DNA of 64,000 nt from Anaeromyxobacter dehalogenans 2CP-C (GTDB lineage Bacteria > Myxococcota > Myxococcia > Myxococcales > Anaeromyxobacteraceae), in the NCBI RefSeq assembly GCF_000013385.1, contig NC_007760.1, forward strand, positions 1,116,001 through 1,180,000. The letters run 5' to 3'. The position numbers and the translations under genes were made by a program. The notes beneath the pieces were generated by a model. That model worked only from the letters and a program-made list of their open reading frames with translations. It was not told the origin of the DNA and did not search any database. Position 1 is the first letter of the stretch; the number at the start of each line of letters is the position of its first letter. Positions 2,236-30,886 of this stretch are shown here, piece by piece.

Positions 2236-3615
2236 TCACCACTCTTCCTTCTGCTTCTCGATGAGCTGCTTGAAGTAGAGCTCCGGGTTCGTGAGCTTCT
2301 TCACCTCCGCGGCGGAGTAGCCGAGGTCGCGGAAGTCCAGCACGCCGTTCACGCCGTGGCAGTTCACGCAGTTCAGCGCCTTCGACCGCGTGACCAGGTG
2401 GTTGCTGCCGAAGTAGATGGTCTGCCAGCCGGGCACCGCGGCCTTCGCCACCGCGGCCGGGTCCTTCATCCCGAGCGTCCGCGCGGCCGACTCGACGCCG
2501 GCGCGCGTGTCGCCGGTCGCCATGGGCGGCGCGAAGTCCATGGAGAGCAGCTTCCCCGTCTTCGCGTCGTAGAACGCCTTCCCCATGTAGATCTTGAACG
2601 GGTAGATCTTGCTCTTCGCGTCCTTGCGGCTGCCCTTCGGGCCGATGAAGTGCGGCTCGTTGCGCACGGTGTGGTCGTACCAGGCGTACACCGGGACGGT
2701 CTCGTTCGCGTCCTTCTTCAGCGTGGTCGGCTCGTAGAAGCCGTCGCCGCCCTTCTCCCAGACCGTGAAGTCCTTCGCCACGGCGCCGCCGGTGCGCGGG
2801 ATGTGGCAGGTCTGGCAGGCGATCCTCGCGGTGTGGCGGTTGTAGTCCGCGCTCTTGTGCGGCTTGTCGCCGTGGCAGCCGTCGCAGGAGAGGCGCAGGC
2901 CGTCGTTCGCCCAGTTGTTCGGGTCGAAGCCGGTCGGGATGCGGTGGTCCTTCGCCTGGTGGCAGTCCACGCACACCATGCCCTTCGCCGCGTGCGCGTC
3001 GGTGTCCTTCGTGAAGGAGAAGCCGCGCTTCACCAGCACGCCGCCGCCCGCCGTCTCGTGGCAGGTCATGCAGTTCTTCACGGTGGGCTTGCCGATCGCG
3101 AGCGCCGCCTTGGTGCTGCGGTCCTGGCCCATGACCACGCGGCCCTGCTCGTCCCGGTACGGCTTGCGCTGCCGGAAGTCGTACTCGGTGGAGTGGCAGA
3201 CCAGGCAGTCCACCGCCGCCTCCGCCTCGGGCCCGGTGCTGCCGACGTCGTTCAGGTGGTTGCCGGGGTGGCAGGTGTTGCAGCCCGTGAACTTGGACTT
3301 GCCGTCCGCGTTCTTCGGGATCTCCTTCAGGTTGTTCACGATGTCGTTGCCGTTGCACATCGTGTAGATGCGGTTCTTCATCCCGTATTCCTGCTTCGGG
3401 TCCAGGTTGTCCACGTTGTCCACCTTGGAAGCGTGCTTCCAGTGGACCGTGCCCAGGAACTCCTTCGCCTTGCCGGGATGGCACTCCTCGCAGGTGGACG
3501 GGCCCTTGTAGCCGTCCTTCTCGATCTGGCTCCGGCCCGGGTGCTCTGCCGCGAAGGCCCCGGGGGCCTGGAGCAGCGCGACCAGCGCGGAGGCGACTGC
3601 CGCCGAACGTCTCAT
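2236..3615 (-). CDS. octaheme c-type cytochrome, tetrathionate reductase (OTR) family
   Basis: 459 aa exported multiheme cytochrome. A Sec signal peptide (MRRSAAVASALVALLQAPG) precedes eight CXXCH heme sites, the first at Cys42 and the last at Cys416. The order of motifs (CEECH with a following THW-like segment, GCNTCH, DCLVCH, NCMTCHETAGGG, VCVDCHQ, SCDGCH, ACQTCHIP, NCVNCH) follows Shewanella octaheme tetrathionate reductase, which reduces tetrathionate, nitrite and hydroxylamine in vitro. Last gene of a three-gene operon behind a DUF3373 porin and a small exported protein, so it probably works in the periplasm or docked in the porin. Family membership is firm; substrate and direction of electron flow are inferred. 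Confidence 0.88.
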   Translation of the reverse strand: MRRSAAVASALVALLQAPGAFAAEHPGRSQIEKDGYKGPSTCEECHPGKAKEFLGTVHWKHASKVDNVDNLDPKQEYGMKNRIYTMCNGNDIVNNLKEIPKNADGKSKFTGCNTCHPGNHLNDVGSTGPEAEAAVDCLVCHSTEYDFRQRKPYRDEQGRVVMGQDRSTKAALAIGKPTVKNCMTCHETAGGGVLVKRGFSFTKDTDAHAAKGMVCVDCHQAKDHRIPTGFDPNNWANDGLRLSCDGCHGDKPHKSADYNRHTARIACQTCHIPRTGGAVAKDFTVWEKGGDGFYEPTTLKKDANETVPVYAWYDHTVRNEPHFIGPKGSRKDAKSKIYPFKIYMGKAFYDAKTGKLLSMDFAPPMATGDTRAGVESAARTLGMKDPAAVAKAAVPGWQTIYFGSNHLVTRSKALNCVNCHGVNGVLDFRDLGYSAAEVKKLTNPELYFKQLIEKQKEEW

Positions 3616-3668
3616 GGTTGTGGTTCCTCGGTCGGGGGGCGAGGTGGGAGGGGCAGGGCGCGCCGCGA

Positions 3669-3995
3669 TCAGCAGCCGGCCGTCTTGCGGAAGTAGGTGG
3701 ACAGCTTCTTGCCGTCCTTGACCTCGTACTTGCACCGGATCTCGTCGCCCTCGACGATGCGGTGGTCCTTGAGCTTGTCGAGCGTGAGGTCGTCCTCGAT
3801 CACGATCTCGACCAGCTCCTCGGTCTTGACGTCCTTCAGCGTCGCGGTCGCGGTCTTCGCGTCCTTGCCCGCGAGGTCGATCTTGGTGATGACGCCCACC
3901 ATCTTCGTCTCGTCGGCCCGGGCGACGCCGCTCAGCGCCACCACGCACATCGCCAGCTGGACGACCGCGAGCACGACTGCGAGAGCCTTCTTCAT
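3669..3995 (-). CDS. small exported protein of the cytochrome-porin operon
   Basis: 108 aa with a clear signal peptide (residues 1-27, ending near GVARA) and a mature part of about 80 residues rich in alternating charged and beta-branched residues, which suggests a small beta-barrel. A repeated pattern of the type GVITKIDLAGKDAKTATATL and EIRCKYEVKDGKK is seen, with single Cys at RCKYE and a terminal Cys. No domain name is recognised. It lies 53 nt upstream of the octaheme cytochrome and 147 nt downstream of the porin on the same strand. A role as periplasmic accessory to the conduit is inferred only from position. Confidence 0.8.
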   Translation of the reverse strand: MKKALAVVLAVVQLAMCVVALSGVARADETKMVGVITKIDLAGKDAKTATATLKDVKTEELVEIVIEDDLTLDKLKDHRIVEGDEIRCKYEVKDGKKLSTYFRKTAGC

Positions 3996-4100
3996 TTCGA
4001 TCTCCTTGGAACGGGTGCTGCTGCTGCGGGGAGGGTTGGTGCCTGCTGCGGCGTGAGCCAGGTGCGGTGCGGGCGGTTCGACGTGCGACGAGAGGCCGCA

Positions 4101-4132
4101 CGCGGCGAGGGACGGCGTCGTCCCCCGCCGCG
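4101..4132 (-). terminator. intra-operon hairpin after the porin gene
   Basis: Inverted repeat with arms CGCGGCG/CGCCGCG and GGGACG/CGTCCC, one mismatch between them and a 4-nt loop, starting about 10 nt after the porin stop codon. No T-run. It could stabilise the upstream porin message or reduce read-through into the two downstream genes. Confidence 0.5.
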
Positions 4133-4142
4133 CGGGCGTGCG

Positions 4143-5609
4143 CTAGAAGCGGACCTCGAACGTGCCGTAGAAGTCCTGGGCGGACTTCAGCGGCGCGAGC
4201 ATCTGCGCGTTCATCGGGCTCGCCATCAGCTCCGAGATCTTCACCGGGGCGCCGATCCAGTTGTTGCTGCTGGTGTAGTCGAAGTCGTAGTACTGCCAGC
4301 CCACCTTGAAGAAGGCCTTGCTGACGAACGAGGAGATCGCCGGCAGCGGCAGCTCCTGGATCAGGTACGCCTCGTAGACGTTGCCGCGGGTGCCGAGCTT
4401 GCTCGTCCACATGTCGTCGGCGGCGGGGTCGAACGGGATCCAGTACTTCGAGCCGTGGTTGTACTCGCCGCCGATCTTGGTGCCGCTGGCCAGGTCGTAG
4501 CGGAGGCCGGCGTACGCGCCCCAGCCGGTGCGATCCGAGGCGTCGGGGCCGCTGGTGAGCAGGCCGGCGCCGGAGTCCATCCCGCCCAGCAGCATGTGCT
4601 TGCCGTTCGGGTGGGTGATGCTGACGCCGCCGCTCGCGAACGTGGTCAGGCTGCCGGGGCCGATGCCCTTCAGCGTGCTGAGCACGCCCGCGCCGTACCA
4701 GTCGATGGAGCCGAGCTCGACGCCGACGTTGTTCGGGTCGTCGAAGATGTTGAACCCGCGGTTCCACTGCAGGTCGATGCGGAGCGGGTCGGTGTCCACC
4801 GGGACGACCCCCACGCCGAGCATGTCGGTGTCCTTCAGGTCGTTCGTGTTGCTGTAGCCGGCCTCGAAGCCGCGGCCGTAGCAGAGCTTCGCGAACGCGC
4901 CGGGGAGCGCGTCGATCTCCGGCGCCCAGCCCAGCGTCATGCCGTCGAACGCGTAGTCCACCAGCAGGCCGGGCACGCCGGCGTTGCCGGGGCGCTCGCC
5001 GTTCTCCCGCACGTGGGTGGGCGATCCGCCCGTGGACGGCCGGCGGCCCACCGAGAACCAGACCGGCTGGTCGAAGATGTTGCTCCAGGTGGCGAACACC
5101 TGGTCCACGCGGAGGACGTTGTCCGTCGGGATGTGGCCGATGCTGCCGTCCAGCACCGACATGCGGTCGGCGAAGAAGCCGGCGTTCGTCGCGTCGGCGG
5201 TCTGCATGCCGCTCGTCTTGTTCATGAGCAGGCGCGTCGTGACCGTGACGTTCCGCGTCGCCTTGGCCTTCAGGTTCAGGCCGAAGCGGTTCGTCATCAG
5301 CGTCCCGTTCTCCGGGTCGAAGCCGGGCATCGGCACCGGCATGGCGGCCGGCCCCATGTACTGGTAGTACGCGGGGACCTCGCCCTTCAGCGAGTCGAGC
5401 CGGAAGCGGTAGTCGCCGCTCACCGTCAGCCACTTGCTGAGCGACTTCTCCTCGTCCTTCTTGACCTGCTGCTTCAGCGCCTCGAGCTCCTTCGCCAGCT
5501 CGTCGATCTTCTTCTGCTGCGGATCGGGGTCGGCGGCGCGGCCGGCCAGCGGCAGCGCCAGGGCGGCCAGGGCCGCCCCCGTCACGACGATTCGGATCAG
5601 CTTGCGCAC
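4143..5609 (-). CDS. DUF3373-type outer-membrane porin
   Basis: 488 aa. The signal peptide (residues 1-25) is followed by a short coiled coil (about 28-52, QQKKIDELAKELEALKQQ) and then an amphipathic beta-barrel to the end, closing in FYGTFEVRF with the C-terminal Phe usual for outer-membrane proteins. The run KSLSKWLTVSGDYRFRLDSL and a VGRRPSTGGSPTHVREN-like segment match the DUF3373 family, which is often found beside multiheme cytochromes in metal-reducing bacteria. GTG start at 5609 with AGGAG about 7 nt upstream. First gene of the operon; a -24/-12 type promoter lies about 50 nt upstream. Likely an outer-membrane channel or cytochrome-holding barrel. Confidence 0.85.
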   Translation of the reverse strand: MRKLIRIVVTGAALAALALPLAGRAADPDPQQKKIDELAKELEALKQQVKKDEEKSLSKWLTVSGDYRFRLDSLKGEVPAYYQYMGPAAMPVPMPGFDPENGTLMTNRFGLNLKAKATRNVTVTTRLLMNKTSGMQTADATNAGFFADRMSVLDGSIGHIPTDNVLRVDQVFATWSNIFDQPVWFSVGRRPSTGGSPTHVRENGERPGNAGVPGLLVDYAFDGMTLGWAPEIDALPGAFAKLCYGRGFEAGYSNTNDLKDTDMLGVGVVPVDTDPLRIDLQWNRGFNIFDDPNNVGVELGSIDWYGAGVLSTLKGIGPGSLTTFASGGVSITHPNGKHMLLGGMDSGAGLLTSGPDASDRTGWGAYAGLRYDLASGTKIGGEYNHGSKYWIPFDPAADDMWTSKLGTRGNVYEAYLIQELPLPAISSFVSKAFFKVGWQYYDFDYTSSNNWIGAPVKISELMASPMNAQMLAPLKSAQDFYGTFEVRF

Positions 5610-24917: not shown

Positions 24918-24944
24918 TGACGGCGGCGCGCCGGTGCGGGCGCG

Positions 24945-27227
24945 CTACGGCGCGTAGTGGTAGCCCACGTCCACCGCGCCGGCGTCCGGGACGCCGTCGG
25001 TCCGGGTGGTGCGGCCGGCCAGGTCGCTCGCGGCGCCCGTGCCGGCGTCCACCGCAGGGCTGGTGGCGGCCTGGCCCGCGGCCAGCTGCGAGAGGTAGTA
25101 GCTGCCGCGCGGCCCGGCGGTGAACAGCGGATCGGCGATCATCGTGAAGCCCGCGGGCGGGGTCCAGGCCGGGTCGGCGTTCGAGAACAGGTTGCCCTCG
25201 AAGGCGAGCTCCGTCGGGATGGAGGGCTCGAGGCGCAGCTGGACCGGCGGCAGGCCGGGCAGGGACTGATCGACGAAGACGCTGTCCTGTACGACGACCG
25301 ACTGCGCGCGCTCCACCATGACGCCGCCGACGACGTCGAGCGGGCCCTGGCTGCCGATGAACGTCGAGCTGCGGATCGTCGCCGAGGAGCCGCCCAGCAC
25401 GGCGACCTGCCCACCCGAGCCGGTGTTGCCCACGAACAGCCCGTTCACGATCGTCGCCCGCGTGCCGTACGAGTAGACGTCGATGGCGCCGCCGTTCCCG
25501 AGCAGGCCGGTGTGGTTGTGGTGGAACTCGCAGTCGCGGATCAGCGGGCCGACCGCCGGGAAGTCGGGGCCGGACGGGGTCGCGAACACCGAGATGGCCC
25601 CCGCGCAGCGGTTCGCGACGTTGTCGTGGAACACCACGCGCTCGATCACCGGCGCGGCCAGGAAGAGCATCGCGCCGGCCCCGTCGTTGTAGAAGTCGCT
25701 GTACGGCAGCGCCGTCTGCGAGATCTCGGGGCGCAGCTCCGGCGTGAAGCCGCCCGGGAACAGCTCGTCCGGAAGCGCGCGGCCGCCGGTGATGGTCAGG
25801 TTCTCGAGCCGCGTGCTCGCGTCGATGCCCTGGTCGAAGAAGACGACGTGCAGGACCCGCCCCTGGCCGTCGAGCACCACCTGCTCCGGCGACGCGCCGG
25901 TTCCGCGTACCACCACGCCGTTCTTCTCCGCCCGGAACACCAGGAACGCCTCCGCGGTCGCGGCCGGCGAGTAGGTGCCGGGATTCACGTACACCGTGGT
26001 GCCCGGGGTCGCCGCGCCGATGGCGTCCGGGATCGAGCCTCCCGGAGCGACGTCGATGCCCAAGGTGATCGTCTTCGTCGTGCTCGCGCTGACGCCGAGC
26101 GCGTTGGTCACCGTCAGCGTGAAGGTCGTCGGCGCGGTGATGGGGCGGGTCGTCGCCGCGATCCCGCTCTGCACCGCGCCCACCGCCTGATCGATCGTGG
26201 CGGTGCCCCCGGCGCCTGCTGCGAAATCGGCGACGAGCGTCGCAGACACGCCCGGGGGTACGTGATCGGGGACCGTGAACGAGCGGATCACGGGCACCGG
26301 GTAGACCGTGACGGTCGCCGAGCGCGCCACGGTCTGGCCCCCCTCGCCTGTCACCGTGAGCGTGTACGTGCGCGTCGCGTCGGGGGTCTCGGTCAGCGTG
26401 CCGGACGAGCCGGGGAGGGCGGTTCCGTCGATCGAGCCCGTGCCGTTCGCGAAGGCGTACTCGAGGCGGGTGGCCCCGCCGGCCGTGATCTGCGCCGGAA
26501 CGGCCGCGAACGCGCTGATCGTCGGGCCGGGCGGCGGAGGCGGCGTCGTGGTCACGGTGAGCGTCGCCTCCGCGCTGGCGATCGTTCCGGCCGCGCTCGT
26601 CGCGACCGCGCGAACGCGGAGGCCGTCGTCCAGCGCGGTGACCCCGCGCCGCGTGAGCACGCCCGTGGTGGCCCCCGCGACGTCGGCCCACGCGCCGCCC
26701 GGCGCGGCGGACTGCCACTGCAGCGCCGGCGCAGGGTCGCCGTCGAACGCGGCCTCGAACGTGGCGTCCCCGCCGGCGAGGACCGCGACGCCGGTCGGGG
26801 AGGCGAGCAGGTGCAGCCAGCTCACGCGAAGCGAGGCCTCGCGGCTGGTGCGAACGCCAGCGTCGTTCCGCGCCCGGACCCGGTAACGCGCGCCGCCGTC
26901 GGCCGCGGCGAGCGGGGCGGTGGTGTACGCCGGTCCGGTCGCGCCCGGGAGCTCGGCCCAGTCGGTCGAGCCCGGCGCGCTGCGCTCCCACTGCAGCTCG
27001 GGCGCGGGGTTGCCCTCGACCCCGGCTGCGAAGGTGGCCCGCTCGCCCTCGCGCGCCTCTTGATCGGACGGCTGGGTGAGGAACGCGGGCGCGGTGAGGA
27101 CGGGCGGGACGTCCCCGGATCGCGGCGAGCCGCCGCCAGCGCTGCACGCCACCGTCACGATCAGCGCGGCGATCGCGGCGGCTCTTGCGTGCGCCGAGGC
27201 GGCGCGGATCGGGATCCGGCTGGACAC
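24945..27227 (-). CDS. Ig-like / right-handed beta-helix lipoprotein (shorter paralog)
   Basis: 760 aa. Signal peptide with lipobox (IVTVAC, Cys about 28). Residues 40-230 hold one two-domain Ig-like unit with the landmark VSWLHLLASP at the domain junction. About 232-400 has two different beta-sandwich modules (STTKTITL end). About 400-760 is a right-handed parallel beta-helix (AIGAATPGTTVYVNPGTY, ENLTITGG, STFIGSQG) ending GYHYAP. The beta-helix aligns closely with that of the next gene, so the two are paralogs with different stalks. Surface-exposed; adhesion or polysaccharide binding is inferred. No catalytic residues are recognised. Confidence 0.87.
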   Translation of the reverse strand: MSSRIPIRAASAHARAAAIAALIVTVACSAGGGSPRSGDVPPVLTAPAFLTQPSDQEAREGERATFAAGVEGNPAPELQWERSAPGSTDWAELPGATGPAYTTAPLAAADGGARYRVRARNDAGVRTSREASLRVSWLHLLASPTGVAVLAGGDATFEAAFDGDPAPALQWQSAAPGGAWADVAGATTGVLTRRGVTALDDGLRVRAVATSAAGTIASAEATLTVTTTPPPPPGPTISAFAAVPAQITAGGATRLEYAFANGTGSIDGTALPGSSGTLTETPDATRTYTLTVTGEGGQTVARSATVTVYPVPVIRSFTVPDHVPPGVSATLVADFAAGAGGTATIDQAVGAVQSGIAATTRPITAPTTFTLTVTNALGVSASTTKTITLGIDVAPGGSIPDAIGAATPGTTVYVNPGTYSPAATAEAFLVFRAEKNGVVVRGTGASPEQVVLDGQGRVLHVVFFDQGIDASTRLENLTITGGRALPDELFPGGFTPELRPEISQTALPYSDFYNDGAGAMLFLAAPVIERVVFHDNVANRCAGAISVFATPSGPDFPAVGPLIRDCEFHHNHTGLLGNGGAIDVYSYGTRATIVNGLFVGNTGSGGQVAVLGGSSATIRSSTFIGSQGPLDVVGGVMVERAQSVVVQDSVFVDQSLPGLPPVQLRLEPSIPTELAFEGNLFSNADPAWTPPAGFTMIADPLFTAGPRGSYYLSQLAAGQAATSPAVDAGTGAASDLAGRTTRTDGVPDAGAVDVGYHYAP

Positions 27228-27264
27228 GGTCCCCCCAGGGAGAAGCGGCGATTCTAGGCGCCGA

Positions 27265-27297
27265 CGCGCCGCGCGGACAGGGGGTCCGCGCGGCGCG
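27265..27297 (-). terminator. strong hairpin between the two paralogous lipoprotein genes
   Basis: Perfect 14-bp stem (27265-27278 and 27284-27297, 5-nt loop) located 20 nt after the stop of the upstream 979-aa gene on the minus strand and 38 nt before the start of the next. No T-run. Suggests separate transcription of the paralogs or 3' stabilisation. Confidence 0.55.
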
Positions 27298-27317
27298 CTC
27301 GGGGTGCGACGTCGTGG

Positions 27318-30257
27318 CTAGGGCGCGTAGTGATAGCCGGCGTCGAGCTGCCCGGTATCGGCCGCACCCGTCGTGCTGGTGGTCCAGTCGCCCGGGAGCA
27401 GCTCCGCCGCGAGCCCGGAGCCCGCGTTCACGGCGGGGCTGTCCGCGGGCTGACCCGCGGCCGTCTGGGACAGGTAGTGGTCGCCACGCGGGCCGGCGAC
27501 GAGGAGCGGGTCCTGCTCGATCCCGGAGCCCTCCGGCGCGATCCACCCTTCCGTGAAGTCCCAGTAGACGTTCCCGGCGGCCTGCAGCGCCGTCGCGCCT
27601 CCCTCGTTCCAGATCGGCGGCATGACCTCACCCGTCTGGTGCACGAAGATGCTGTCGCGCACCTCGGCCTGCACGGCGCCGTCCAGCCGGACGCCACCCA
27701 CCGGCCCCGAGGGATCGAACAGGTTGCCGACGAACGTCGAGCTCCGGACGGACAGCGTCGATCCGGTCATCGCGGTCACCTGGCCGCCCCAGCCGTTGTT
27801 CCCGACGAACAGGCAGTTCACGACGCTCGCGCGCGTTCCGTTGAGGTGAACGTCGATGGCCGCGCCGAGGCTGCCGGAGTTCGCGGGGCCTCCACCCTCG
27901 GTGTGGTTGCGCAGGAACTCGCTGTTCCGGATGTCCGGGCCGTCCGGGAGGAACCAGGGCGCGTCGGGAAGCGCGAACACCGAGAGGCCGCCGCCGCAGT
28001 GGCCGGAGGTGTTCTCGACGACGACCACCCTGTCGAGCGTCGGCGCGGCCCGGAACAGCATGGCGCCCGCGCCGTCGGTGTAGAAGTCGCTCAGCGGGCG
28101 GTTCTCCGCACCCTGCGGGATCTCGGGGTGGAGCGGCTCCGGGACGATGCCGTCCTGGAACAGCTCGGTGGGCACGGCGCGGCCGCCGGTGATCGTGAGG
28201 TTCTCGACCCGCGTGCTGCGATCGATGCCCTGATCGAAGAGCAGGACGTGCAGGACGCGCTGGCTGCCGTCGAGGACCACCTCGCCCGGGGTCGCGCCCT
28301 CGCCGCGCAGCACGACGCCGTTCTTCTCCGGACGGAACACCAGGAACGCCTCGGCGTTCGCGTCGGGGGCGTACGTCCCCGGGTACACGTGGATGGTCGT
28401 CCCCGGGGCCGCCGCGTCGATGGCGGCCTGGATGGACTCGCCCGGGTGCACGTCGATGCGCGCCGGATCCGTCTGCACGGTGAGCGTCGCCTCGGCGCTC
28501 GTGATCGGCGACGCGGCGGCGGCGCTGGTGGCGACCGCGCGCAGGCGGAGCCCGTCGTCGCCCGCCACGGTGGCCGCGATGGCGTACGTGCTCGAGGTCG
28601 CGCCGGGGAGATCGCTCCACGCGACCCCGTCCACCGACGACTGCCACTGGAGGACGGGCGCCGGGCTGCCCTGGAAGTCCACCGTGAACGTGGCGGCCTC
28701 GCCGGCGACCACGGTGACGCTGGCGGGCGGCGTGACCAGGTGCAGCCAGCGGACCGTCAGCAGCGCCGGCTGGCTCTCCGCGCGCCCTTCGGCGCTGGTC
28801 GCCACGAGCCGGTAGCTGGCGCCGTCGTCGGCCGCCAGGAGCGCGGGCGTGGTGTACGTCCCGGAGGTCGCGCCGGCGACGGGCGTCCAGTCCGCGCTGC
28901 CCGGCGCGCGCCGCTCCCACTGCAGCGACGGGGTGGGCGTGCCCGACGCCGTCGCGCCGAACGTGGCCGTCAGGCCCTCGTCGCCGGCCTGGTCCACCGG
29001 CTGCGCCACGATCGCGGGCGCGACCCGGCGCTCCTGGACCGTCAGCACCGCCTCGAGGCTCTGCACGGCCGTGGCCGCGTTCACGGCGACGGCACGGACG
29101 CGCATGCCGTCGTCGGTCAGCGCGGCCGCCGGGAACGTCCAGCTCGCGCCGCCGGCGCCGGGCACCGCGGCCCAGGCGCCGCCCGGCGGCTGGATCTCCC
29201 AGTGGAGCGCCGGGGCCGGGCTGCCGTCGAACGAGGCCGTGAACGTGGCGGCGTCGCCGACCGTCACCGCGACGTCGGCGGGCGAGGACACGAGGTGCAG
29301 CCACCGCACCGTGAGCGCGGCGGCCCGGGTGGTGGCGGTCCCCGCCGCGCTGGTCGCGACGAGGCGGTAGCTGGCGCCGAGGTCGCCGGGCGTCAGCGCG
29401 GGCGTGGTGTACGAGCCCGAGGTGGCGCCCGGGATCGCGGTCCACGTGGCCGCCCCCGGCGCCTGCCGCTCCCACTGCACCGCCGGCGCGGGCACGCCGG
29501 AGACGGTCGCGGCGAAGGTGACCCGCCCGCCCTCGTCGCCGGTCTGGTCGGCCGGCTGCGTGTCGATGGCGGGCGCGATCTGCGTGGCGGCGACGTCGAG
29601 CACCGCGTCGGCGCTCGTCACCTCGCCGTACGCGTTCACGGCCACCGCGTGGAAGCGGGCGCCGTCGCCCGACACGGGGCAGGCCGCCAGCACGTAGAGG
29701 CCGGACGTGGCGTCGGCGATGTCCGTCCACGCGCCGCCCGCCGGCGCCTGCTCCCAGTGGATCGAGGGCGCCGGGTTCCCCTCGAACACGGCCTCGAACG
29801 ACACGTCCGAGCCGGCGGTCGTGGTCGCGTCGTGAGGCGACGCGACCAGGTGCAGCCAGGTCACCGAGAGCGAGGCCGCGCGGCTGGTGCGCGAGCCCGC
29901 GTCGTTCGTCACGACCACGCGCACCCGGGTGCCGTGATCGGCCGGCGCCAGGGCCGCGGTGGTGTACGTGGCGCTCGTCGCGCCCGGGATCGCCGTCCAG
30001 GTGGTGGAGCCCGGGGCCGCGCGCTCCCAGCGAAGCGCGGCGGGCGTGTCGGCGGAGATCGCCGCGGCGAACGTCGCGGCCGCGCCCTCGCGCGCGACCT
30101 GATCCGCGGGCTCGGTGACCAGCTCCGGCAGCCGGAGGTCCACCGTGTTCCCGTCGTCGCTCCCGCCGCAAGCGAGCGTGCCCACCAGCACCACCAGGAT
30201 CGGCGCCCATGCGCGTGCGCTGGCGGCACGAGCGGTGCGCGAAGTGCGACTCGGCAT
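27318..30257 (-). CDS. Ig-like / right-handed beta-helix lipoprotein (longer paralog)
   Basis: 979 aa. Signal peptide with lipobox (VGTLAC, Cys about 30). Residues about 45-600 are six Ig-like domains arranged as three copies of a 185-residue two-domain unit. Each unit carries WER-APGS, IPGATS-YTT and ends its first domain in WLHLV. About 600-979 is a right-handed parallel beta-helix (IQAAIDAAAPGTTIHVYPGT, RVENLTITGG, VRSSTFVGN) ending GYHYAP. Outer-surface stalk plus beta-helix head. Opposite to the TrmO gene side there are 212 nt of non-coding sequence (30258-30469) with no convincing promoter. Function unknown. Confidence 0.88.
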   Translation of the reverse strand: MPSRTSRTARAASARAWAPILVVLVGTLACGGSDDGNTVDLRLPELVTEPADQVAREGAAATFAAAISADTPAALRWERAAPGSTTWTAIPGATSATYTTAALAPADHGTRVRVVVTNDAGSRTSRAASLSVTWLHLVASPHDATTTAGSDVSFEAVFEGNPAPSIHWEQAPAGGAWTDIADATSGLYVLAACPVSGDGARFHAVAVNAYGEVTSADAVLDVAATQIAPAIDTQPADQTGDEGGRVTFAATVSGVPAPAVQWERQAPGAATWTAIPGATSGSYTTPALTPGDLGASYRLVATSAAGTATTRAAALTVRWLHLVSSPADVAVTVGDAATFTASFDGSPAPALHWEIQPPGGAWAAVPGAGGASWTFPAAALTDDGMRVRAVAVNAATAVQSLEAVLTVQERRVAPAIVAQPVDQAGDEGLTATFGATASGTPTPSLQWERRAPGSADWTPVAGATSGTYTTPALLAADDGASYRLVATSAEGRAESQPALLTVRWLHLVTPPASVTVVAGEAATFTVDFQGSPAPVLQWQSSVDGVAWSDLPGATSSTYAIAATVAGDDGLRLRAVATSAAAASPITSAEATLTVQTDPARIDVHPGESIQAAIDAAAPGTTIHVYPGTYAPDANAEAFLVFRPEKNGVVLRGEGATPGEVVLDGSQRVLHVLLFDQGIDRSTRVENLTITGGRAVPTELFQDGIVPEPLHPEIPQGAENRPLSDFYTDGAGAMLFRAAPTLDRVVVVENTSGHCGGGLSVFALPDAPWFLPDGPDIRNSEFLRNHTEGGGPANSGSLGAAIDVHLNGTRASVVNCLFVGNNGWGGQVTAMTGSTLSVRSSTFVGNLFDPSGPVGGVRLDGAVQAEVRDSIFVHQTGEVMPPIWNEGGATALQAAGNVYWDFTEGWIAPEGSGIEQDPLLVAGPRGDHYLSQTAAGQPADSPAVNAGSGLAAELLPGDWTTSTTGAADTGQLDAGYHYAP
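28458..30125 (-). repeat. three in-frame 555-nt repeats encoding paired Ig-like domains
   Basis: The landmark encoding WLHLV recurs at 28735, 29290 and 29845 (plus-strand positions of the reverse complement), exactly 555 nt apart both times, i.e. 185 codons per unit with no length drift. The single unit in the neighbouring paralog (about 26538-27110) is of the same type. Confidence 0.85.
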
Positions 30258-30469
30258 GTGAGGTCCCCCCTCGAACGACTCGCGCCACTGTAGGCAGCGC
30301 GCGATCGCCGCGAACAGAGGCGGATCGTCGCGGAGTGCGAGTGCGACAATCCGTGCACCCGCGGGCGCGGCGCGTCACGCGGTGGCGGGCCGGGGGCGAA
30401 ACGTTGATGCTGCAATCGAAGCGGAGGCGCGGCGGGCGCTTGCGGGCGCGGTCCCGAGGACGCGGGACG

Positions 30470-30886
30470 TCACGCCAGCACGGGCTTGAGGTCCACCACC
30501 GGAGTGCCGTCGATCGCCTCGATGGGGCCGATGCGCAGGCGCCGGCCGTCGATCGCGCGGACGGTGACCGGGTGCAGGCCGAGCGGGTTGGGCCGGTCCG
30601 GCGAGCGGGTGGCGAACACGCCCGTCACCGGGTTGCGCCGATCGCCCCGCGGGTGGACGCGGAGCACGGAGCGGTCGCCGCGGTGCAGCCAGGTGACGAC
30701 CAGGAGCGCGTCGCCGGCGGCGATGCCGTCCAGGCCGTCGGCGGCCCACGGGTACACCTCCAGCCACGCGTCCGGCGCGCCCTCCGAGCCCTGCTTCGGC
30801 GCGTCGCCGCGGGCGGTGATCGCCGAGCGGATCACGCCGATGGGACGCAGCAGGGGCGCGTCGGCTCCGGGCGGGGTGACGGTCAT
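30470..30886 (-). CDS. trmO: tRNA (N6-threonylcarbamoyladenosine37-N6)-methyltransferase TrmO
   Basis: 138 aa. Uses S-adenosylmethionine to methylate t6A37 of tRNA-Thr, improving decoding. The TsaA/TrmO beta-barrel fold is recognised by LRPIGVIRSAI at the start, RGDRRNPVTGVFATRSPDR followed by PNPLG, and GTPVVDLKP at the end. Only the catalytic domain is present, shorter than E. coli TrmO (about 235 aa), as in many bacteria and archaea. GGAGG lies 6 nt before the ATG. Single gene, divergent from the DUF5916 gene at 31031. Confidence 0.9.
   Translation of the reverse strand: MTVTPPGADAPLLRPIGVIRSAITARGDAPKQGSEGAPDAWLEVYPWAADGLDGIAAGDALLVVTWLHRGDRSVLRVHPRGDRRNPVTGVFATRSPDRPNPLGLHPVTVRAIDGRRLRIGPIEAIDGTPVVDLKPVLA

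Follow-up and report, generated by a model that had tools for sequence, protein, structure and literature searches.

A repeated pair of immunoglobulin-like domains in a predicted lipoprotein of Anaeromyxobacter dehalogenans 2CP-C

Growth of repeat proteins by several domains duplicating together is described for domain repeats in general in PMC1553488, and the super-repeats of titin, as presented in PMC10665226, are multi-domain repeats with position-specific subtypes. In bacteria, fibrillar adhesin-like proteins are characterized in PMC8286594 by at least one stalk domain and at least one known adhesive domain; I-set is treated in that survey as one of the stalk families, and is placed among those for which no combination with a known adhesive domain was seen (27 adhesive families). 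Periscope proteins are defined by highly identical tandem repeats, in numbers that differ from strain to strain, according to the account in PMC9704523, and the VARTIG modules of Thermococcales, as reported in PMC8416519, are Ig-domain proteins in lineage-variable loci.

We focus here on two adjacent genes, A and B, of this soil bacterium, in a window of 64,000 nucleotides (bases 1116001–1180000 of a genome consisting of one contig of 5,013,479 bases), and on how they compare with these systems. First of all, gene A shares joint domain duplication and position-specific subtypes with the repeats of PMC1553488 and the titin super-repeats of PMC10665226, and titin Ig tandems match the model of its repeat unit; it differs in having a two-domain unit, in three copies, in a bacterial predicted lipoprotein. 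Second, genes A and B resemble the fibrillar adhesin-like proteins of PMC8286594 in combining a tandem Ig-fold stalk, here of the I-set family, with a terminal domain. On the other hand, Pfam recognizes no adhesive domain in either gene, and the arrangement is one of a predicted N-terminal lipid anchor and a C-terminal head. Third, gene A resembles periscope proteins, as these are outlined in PMC9704523, in that its rod is a tandem array of folded domains and may change in domain number, but it lies outside their definition because its repeats have diverged. Finally, genes A and B are similar to the VARTIG modules described in PMC8416519 in being Ig-domain proteins of a lineage-variable locus, whereas those modules are archaeal and carry a hypervariable C-terminal Ig domain.

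Our literature searches, on Ig-like proteins of Anaeromyxobacter or myxobacteria and on tandem I-set domains in bacteria, were conducted mostly outside subscription journals and listed no paper with a title or displayed abstract on the gene A protein. The pair is a compact bacterial case: the duplicated unit of two Ig domains is at the same time a predicted structural unit, and a paralog with a single unit adjoins it for comparison; the mode of stalk growth is one already described for domain repeats generally (PMC1553488), and the mechanism is ordinary. The reading that we prefer, and consider likely, is that both proteins are lipid-anchored, that the rod of gene A grew by duplication of an Ig A + Ig B module and that this pair forms a stiff predicted module.

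Anatomy of genes A and B

Gene A consists, in order, of a hydrophobic leader, three Ig pairs and a C-terminal head domain, while gene B has one Ig pair, two further modules and the same kind of head domain (Table 1); the preliminary description, which reported a neighbouring paralog with one unit plus different modules, was right in this respect. Read in the sequence, the leaders end in GTLAC, with the cysteine at residue 30, in gene A and in VTVAC, with the cysteine at residue 28, in gene B; following the usual lipobox rule, we take these to be putative lipobox cysteines. A scan for sigma-70-type promoters and terminators found none, and none was expected.

Table 1. Coordinates, in the window, of the gene pair and its parts
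Feature	Position	Strand	Description
Stretch between aligned flanks	24918..30476	(.)	5,559 bp; holds genes A and B
Gene A	27318..30257	(-)	979 aa, ATG open frame, predicted lipoprotein
Unit U1	29574..30128	(-)	Ig domains A1 + B1, 185 aa
Unit U2	29019..29573	(-)	Ig domains A2 + B2, 185 aa; structure modelled
Unit U3	28464..29018	(-)	Ig domains A3 + B3; two-residue insertion in B3
Gene A head domain	27321..28463	(-)	381 aa; 57% identical to gene B head
Gene B	24945..27227	(-)	760-aa paralog, GTG start
Unit P1	26535..27089	(-)	sole Ig pair of gene B
Gene B two further modules	26067..26537	(-)	157 aa; PF22352 (PKD) E 0.0042, below cut-off
Gene B head domain	24948..26069	(-)	PF13229 Beta_helix score

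The Pfam family PF07679 (I-set, cut-off 23.7) is found in five stretches of gene A (2.1e-30, 105 bits) and in gene B (9.9e-11, 42 bits); the families that score above the Pfam cut-off in the two genes are I-set, Ig_3 and, for the gene B head scored alone, Beta_helix. For gene A, NCBIfam gives ZirU_fam at 28.3 bits, far below the cut-off of 100. An I-set search of the own genome, for which a control set was matched in 0 of 14 genomes, finds five places, four of them in genes A and B. The fifth, at 1400215, may be a shadow frame, lying by eye antisense to a lipoprotein-like open frame, and we set it aside as such.

The head may be beta-helix-like, judging by weak family scores. Against PF13229 (cut-off 25.9) the gene B head reaches 28 bits when scored alone and 25.6 within the whole protein, and the gene A head 13.1 bits (E 0.076), which is below the cut-off, as is its match to PF07602 (E 0.028). 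The structural model of the head is poor (pLDDT 45.8). Matches to the head occur in 7 of 147 genomes of the class and 11 of 195 of the phylum, the own genome counted in both, in searches whose first pass scored only part of each genome's candidates; outside the own genome all are partial, the best being in G186 (1.2e-12, profile positions 269–384), G150 and G156. A scan of genome contigs, which depends on short patterns, gave one partial match, in Cylindrospermum (residues 7–64, 41%). The head had no match in plasmids or among PDB sequences, nor in viral contigs, where the scan likewise depends on short patterns.

Put together, these features suggest an arrangement in which both proteins would be held in the envelope by an N-terminal lipid anchor, from which an I-set-like Ig rod would carry a C-terminal beta-helix-like head outwards to the cell surface. 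The three modules of gene A would give its head the longer reach, and the head may have a binding role and is perhaps adhesive.

The 555-nt period and the two-domain unit

An exact 555-nt periodicity of paired Ig-like domains had been reported for positions 28458–30125. The period is real, the coordinates are accurate to a few bases, and the self-comparison proposed as a check gives a strong signal: a lag of 555 has a nucleotide identity of 0.652 and a lag of 1110 one of 0.597, against a mean of 0.374 (sd 0.020) at other lags in multiples of 3 (30 to 1199) and a highest value of 0.44 among 300 codon shuffles (lags 30–897, steps of 3). At the protein level, identity is 0.517 at lag 185 and 0.405 at lag 370, with a mean of 0.101 over lags 10–419. 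A repeat search returns the same copies at spacings of 555 and 555, and 1929 to the paralog. The units of gene A start at residues 44, 229 and 414, and both spacings are thus exactly 185 residues; as these are the only two spacings measured and the third copy carries an insertion, the claim of three units of identical length goes further than the spacings strictly show. The clear divergence that was also claimed is evident, the three units being 0.42–0.55 identical in protein and 0.60–0.67 in DNA.

Each unit is made up of two homologous Ig domains, of which Ig A has 91 aa and Ig B, its linker included, 94 aa, and 555 nt is therefore a higher-order period. Within gene A, identity is 0.54 between domains two apart, 0.39 between neighbours and 0.41 between domains three apart. 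A tree built from 54 Ig domains has one clade of A-type domains (support 99/96) and one of B-type domains (100/97). The 54 rows of this tree come from the present genome and from others of the class, and it has only 87 columns; domains below 15 bits were left out, including 11 of the 14 of array L110, and its weak spots are a long branch for B1 (geneA_d2) and an odd letter make-up in two window rows. A single clade of all eight window Ig domains is not rejected (p-AU 0.36), and the A and B types may share one origin. The 185-aa period is a higher-order repeat: identity at a lag of two domains exceeds that at a lag of one, and the subtypes are clades.

A period of 185 aa could also arise if a plain array of single Ig domains, of about 92 aa each, were read two at a time. 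Each half of the unit is indeed an Ig domain, and lags of 90–95 aa are weakly visible, the weaker protein peaks standing at 90–91, 95 and 275–276 aa. However, lag-2 identity exceeds lag-1 and lag-3 identity by 0.13–0.15 and the A and B types are separate clades, and we regard such an array as hardly credible. Duplication of the Ig A + Ig B pair as one unit, not as single Ig domains, is on the other hand well supported, since the A and B clades are separate and the paralogs differ by whole units, three versus one. The preliminary description is partly supported: its reading of a stalk that changes by whole units agrees with these results, and of its proposal of unequal crossing-over or duplication, the duplication of the pair as a unit stands, while crossing-over is not directly visible. 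Homologous recombination may have been the mechanism by which this two-domain module was duplicated in tandem as the rod of gene A grew.

The pair is probably also a structural module, according to a model of U2 built from four alignment rows, these being the four units of the two genes (pLDDT 96.6, pTM 0.80). Its fold is predicted to be Ig, and a continuous strand, residues 85–96, is predicted to span the A–B junction, the pTM leaving the relative orientation of the two domains loose; the motif WLHL stands at this junction, at residue 90, in all four units. With the last strand of Ig A continuing, in the model, into the first of Ig B, the two domains would act as a single stiff element, and the unit that was duplicated would then coincide with the structural one. 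Stalk length would have changed by whole modules. The best structural match of the model is MuSK Ig1-2 (Z 14.9, rmsd 2.6 over 168 residues); the best matches are Ig tandems of animal proteins, such as MuSK, Robo1, Dscam, titin and NCAM2, with Z of 12.1–14.9 among the 50 matches listed, and the sequence profile of the unit, in agreement, matches Robo1 at 1.3e-24.

Unit number and other Ig arrays

In the domain tree, the first A domains of the two genes group together (99/88), the A domains from U2 and U3 form a second group (100/91), and the quartet of A halves resolves as P1 with U1, the alternatives having p-AU of 0.006–0.018 in protein and DNA. For the quartet of B halves the likelihood test favours no one topology, and a clade of the three A domains of gene A is not rejected (p-AU 0.073). 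The history that we favour, as yet short of proof, starts from two or more units already present when the two genes diverged; gene B has since lost one or more of these, and gene A has acquired an additional one in the inner part of its stalk. The A half of P1 is nearest to U1 (0.58) and its B half to U3 (0.58); quartet sites for P1+U1, P1+U3 and P1+U2 number 25, 11 and 6 for the A half and 11, 19 and 11 for the B half. Fisher's test on the U1 and U3 counts gives p 0.013 for a table picked after the identities were known. A breakpoint inside the unit was considered and is not established, the scan giving p 0.112 and the B half being indecisive by likelihood.

Judging by their 42–55% protein identity and shared runs of at most 19 nt, the unit copies are old. 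The longest identical runs between units, 13–19 nt, argue against recent exchange among them, and this bears on the alternative that gene A encodes a periscope-like protein, in which present-day recombination between units would make the stalk longer or shorter. Such ongoing variation would fit with paralogs that differ by whole units and with a neighbouring repeat gene that differs by one unit between the related genomes G001 and G004. Nevertheless, units that are 60–67% identical in DNA are far from the highly identical repeats by which PMC9704523 delimits the periscope class, for which an array in G017 with a 0.97 pair is a better fit, and we consider ongoing variation in gene A very improbable. 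Duplication of the Ig A + Ig B module in the past remains our preferred explanation.

The Ig unit has matches in 57 of 145 genomes of the class, the own included, and three phage records match 38% of it. Within the genus there is one weak partial Ig match, in G006 (2.4e-4), and single Ig domains are thus not absent from it. For a comparison of arrays we used 20 regions from hits in the class, four of them chosen for head matches, which contain, besides gene A, eight frames with at least three Ig domains. Lag-2 identity is greater than lag-1 identity in five of these eight, by 0.02–0.08 versus 0.15 in gene A: 0.81 and 0.73 in L109, 0.52–0.53 and 0.45–0.49 in L104–L106 (two comparisons each), and 0.46 and 0.44 in L108. 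A two-domain signal is thus not peculiar to gene A. In L102, L107 and L110, lag 2 is not above lag 1. Neighbouring Ig copies in L104–L107 are 38–53% identical and yet spaced by exactly 88 and 88 aa, and L109 has an equally exact 89 aa; exact spacing is thus ordinary for Ig arrays, and the length constraint that had been proposed for gene A needs no special cause.

Two of these arrays have features of their own. L109 (G021 C5) is a frame of 1607 aa with ten Ig domains, each exactly 89 aa from the next and neighbours being 60–87% identical, and shows a two-domain pattern among its last Ig domains. L102 (G017 C22), a frame of 937 aa, has five Ig domains, one neighbour pair of which is 97% identical; on sequence grounds it would be a better candidate for recent unit exchange than gene A. 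Its domains d2–d5 are sister to the B-type domains of the window (support 96/77).

The locus in related genomes

The gene pair looks lineage-specific. Its flanks, a PLD-family gene on one side and a TrmO-family gene on the other, are 39 bp apart in G001 and 48 bp apart in G004, versus 5,559 bp in the window, the PLD gene being 94.8% and 90.9% identical to that of the window, respectively. Searches of the genus, in a set with one genome per species, gave no match to gene A, to its head domain or to the PKD-like modules of gene B in any of the eight other genomes (G008 being only 66% complete). In the other six genomes of the genus, the PLD protein has at best partial counterparts of 35–46% identity, and the site is thus not comparable there.

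These observations raise the possibility, which we entertain as somewhat less than even, that both genes arrived together as a finished cassette, their stalks already as long as today, and that the stalks did not grow within this lineage. This scenario is compatible with an origin of the units by module duplication. Apart from the short intervals in G001 and G004 and the missing counterparts in the genus, it would agree with the third-position GC of the pair, 0.964 and 0.951, which is lower than the 0.992 and 0.983 of the two flanking genes measured. Furthermore, the flanks of G001 are closer to those of the window than the flanks of G004 are, which makes a single gain more economical than two separate losses, although loss in both genomes is also conceivable. 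Against arrival as a cassette stand the failure of our searches to find a donor, with plasmids and viral contigs giving no match to the head, the absence of a tRNA from the window and of an integrase from the six neighbouring proteins scanned, and the lack of a clear target-site duplication at the ends of the stretch, where the best short matches are either exact over 10 nt or have one mismatch in 14 nt (E 0.088).

More speculatively, the head could be a new lineage-restricted surface-recognition domain on an interchangeable stalk, and the locus a site at which stalk-and-head surface proteins are swapped in Anaeromyxobacter. We think this unlikely on balance, and note as its setting that close relatives carry other, putative stalked lipoproteins in the same neighbourhood. 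If stalked lipoproteins are indeed exchanged between species in this neighbourhood, it could serve as a tractable model for the exchange of surface proteins. The head domain deserves further attention, as does the variable neighbourhood.

The genes concerned are lipoprotein-like and lie between TrmO and DUF5916, in G004 (L064 about 3400–4960) and in G001 (L065 2873–4240); the window has nothing at their place beyond TrmO. They contain CHB_HEX_C_1 repeats, of which G004 has three and G001 two; these are spaced by 84–86 aa, not exactly, and match best first to first and last to last. With C-terminal parts that are 69% identical and outer repeats that match by position, the number of units has changed between these apparent orthologs, a one-unit difference that is also in keeping with the growth of gene A by whole modules. 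Next to the G001 gene, a further lipoprotein-like frame (L065 4255–5076), for which Pfam gives no match, resembles by eye the C-terminal part of its neighbour without the repeats.
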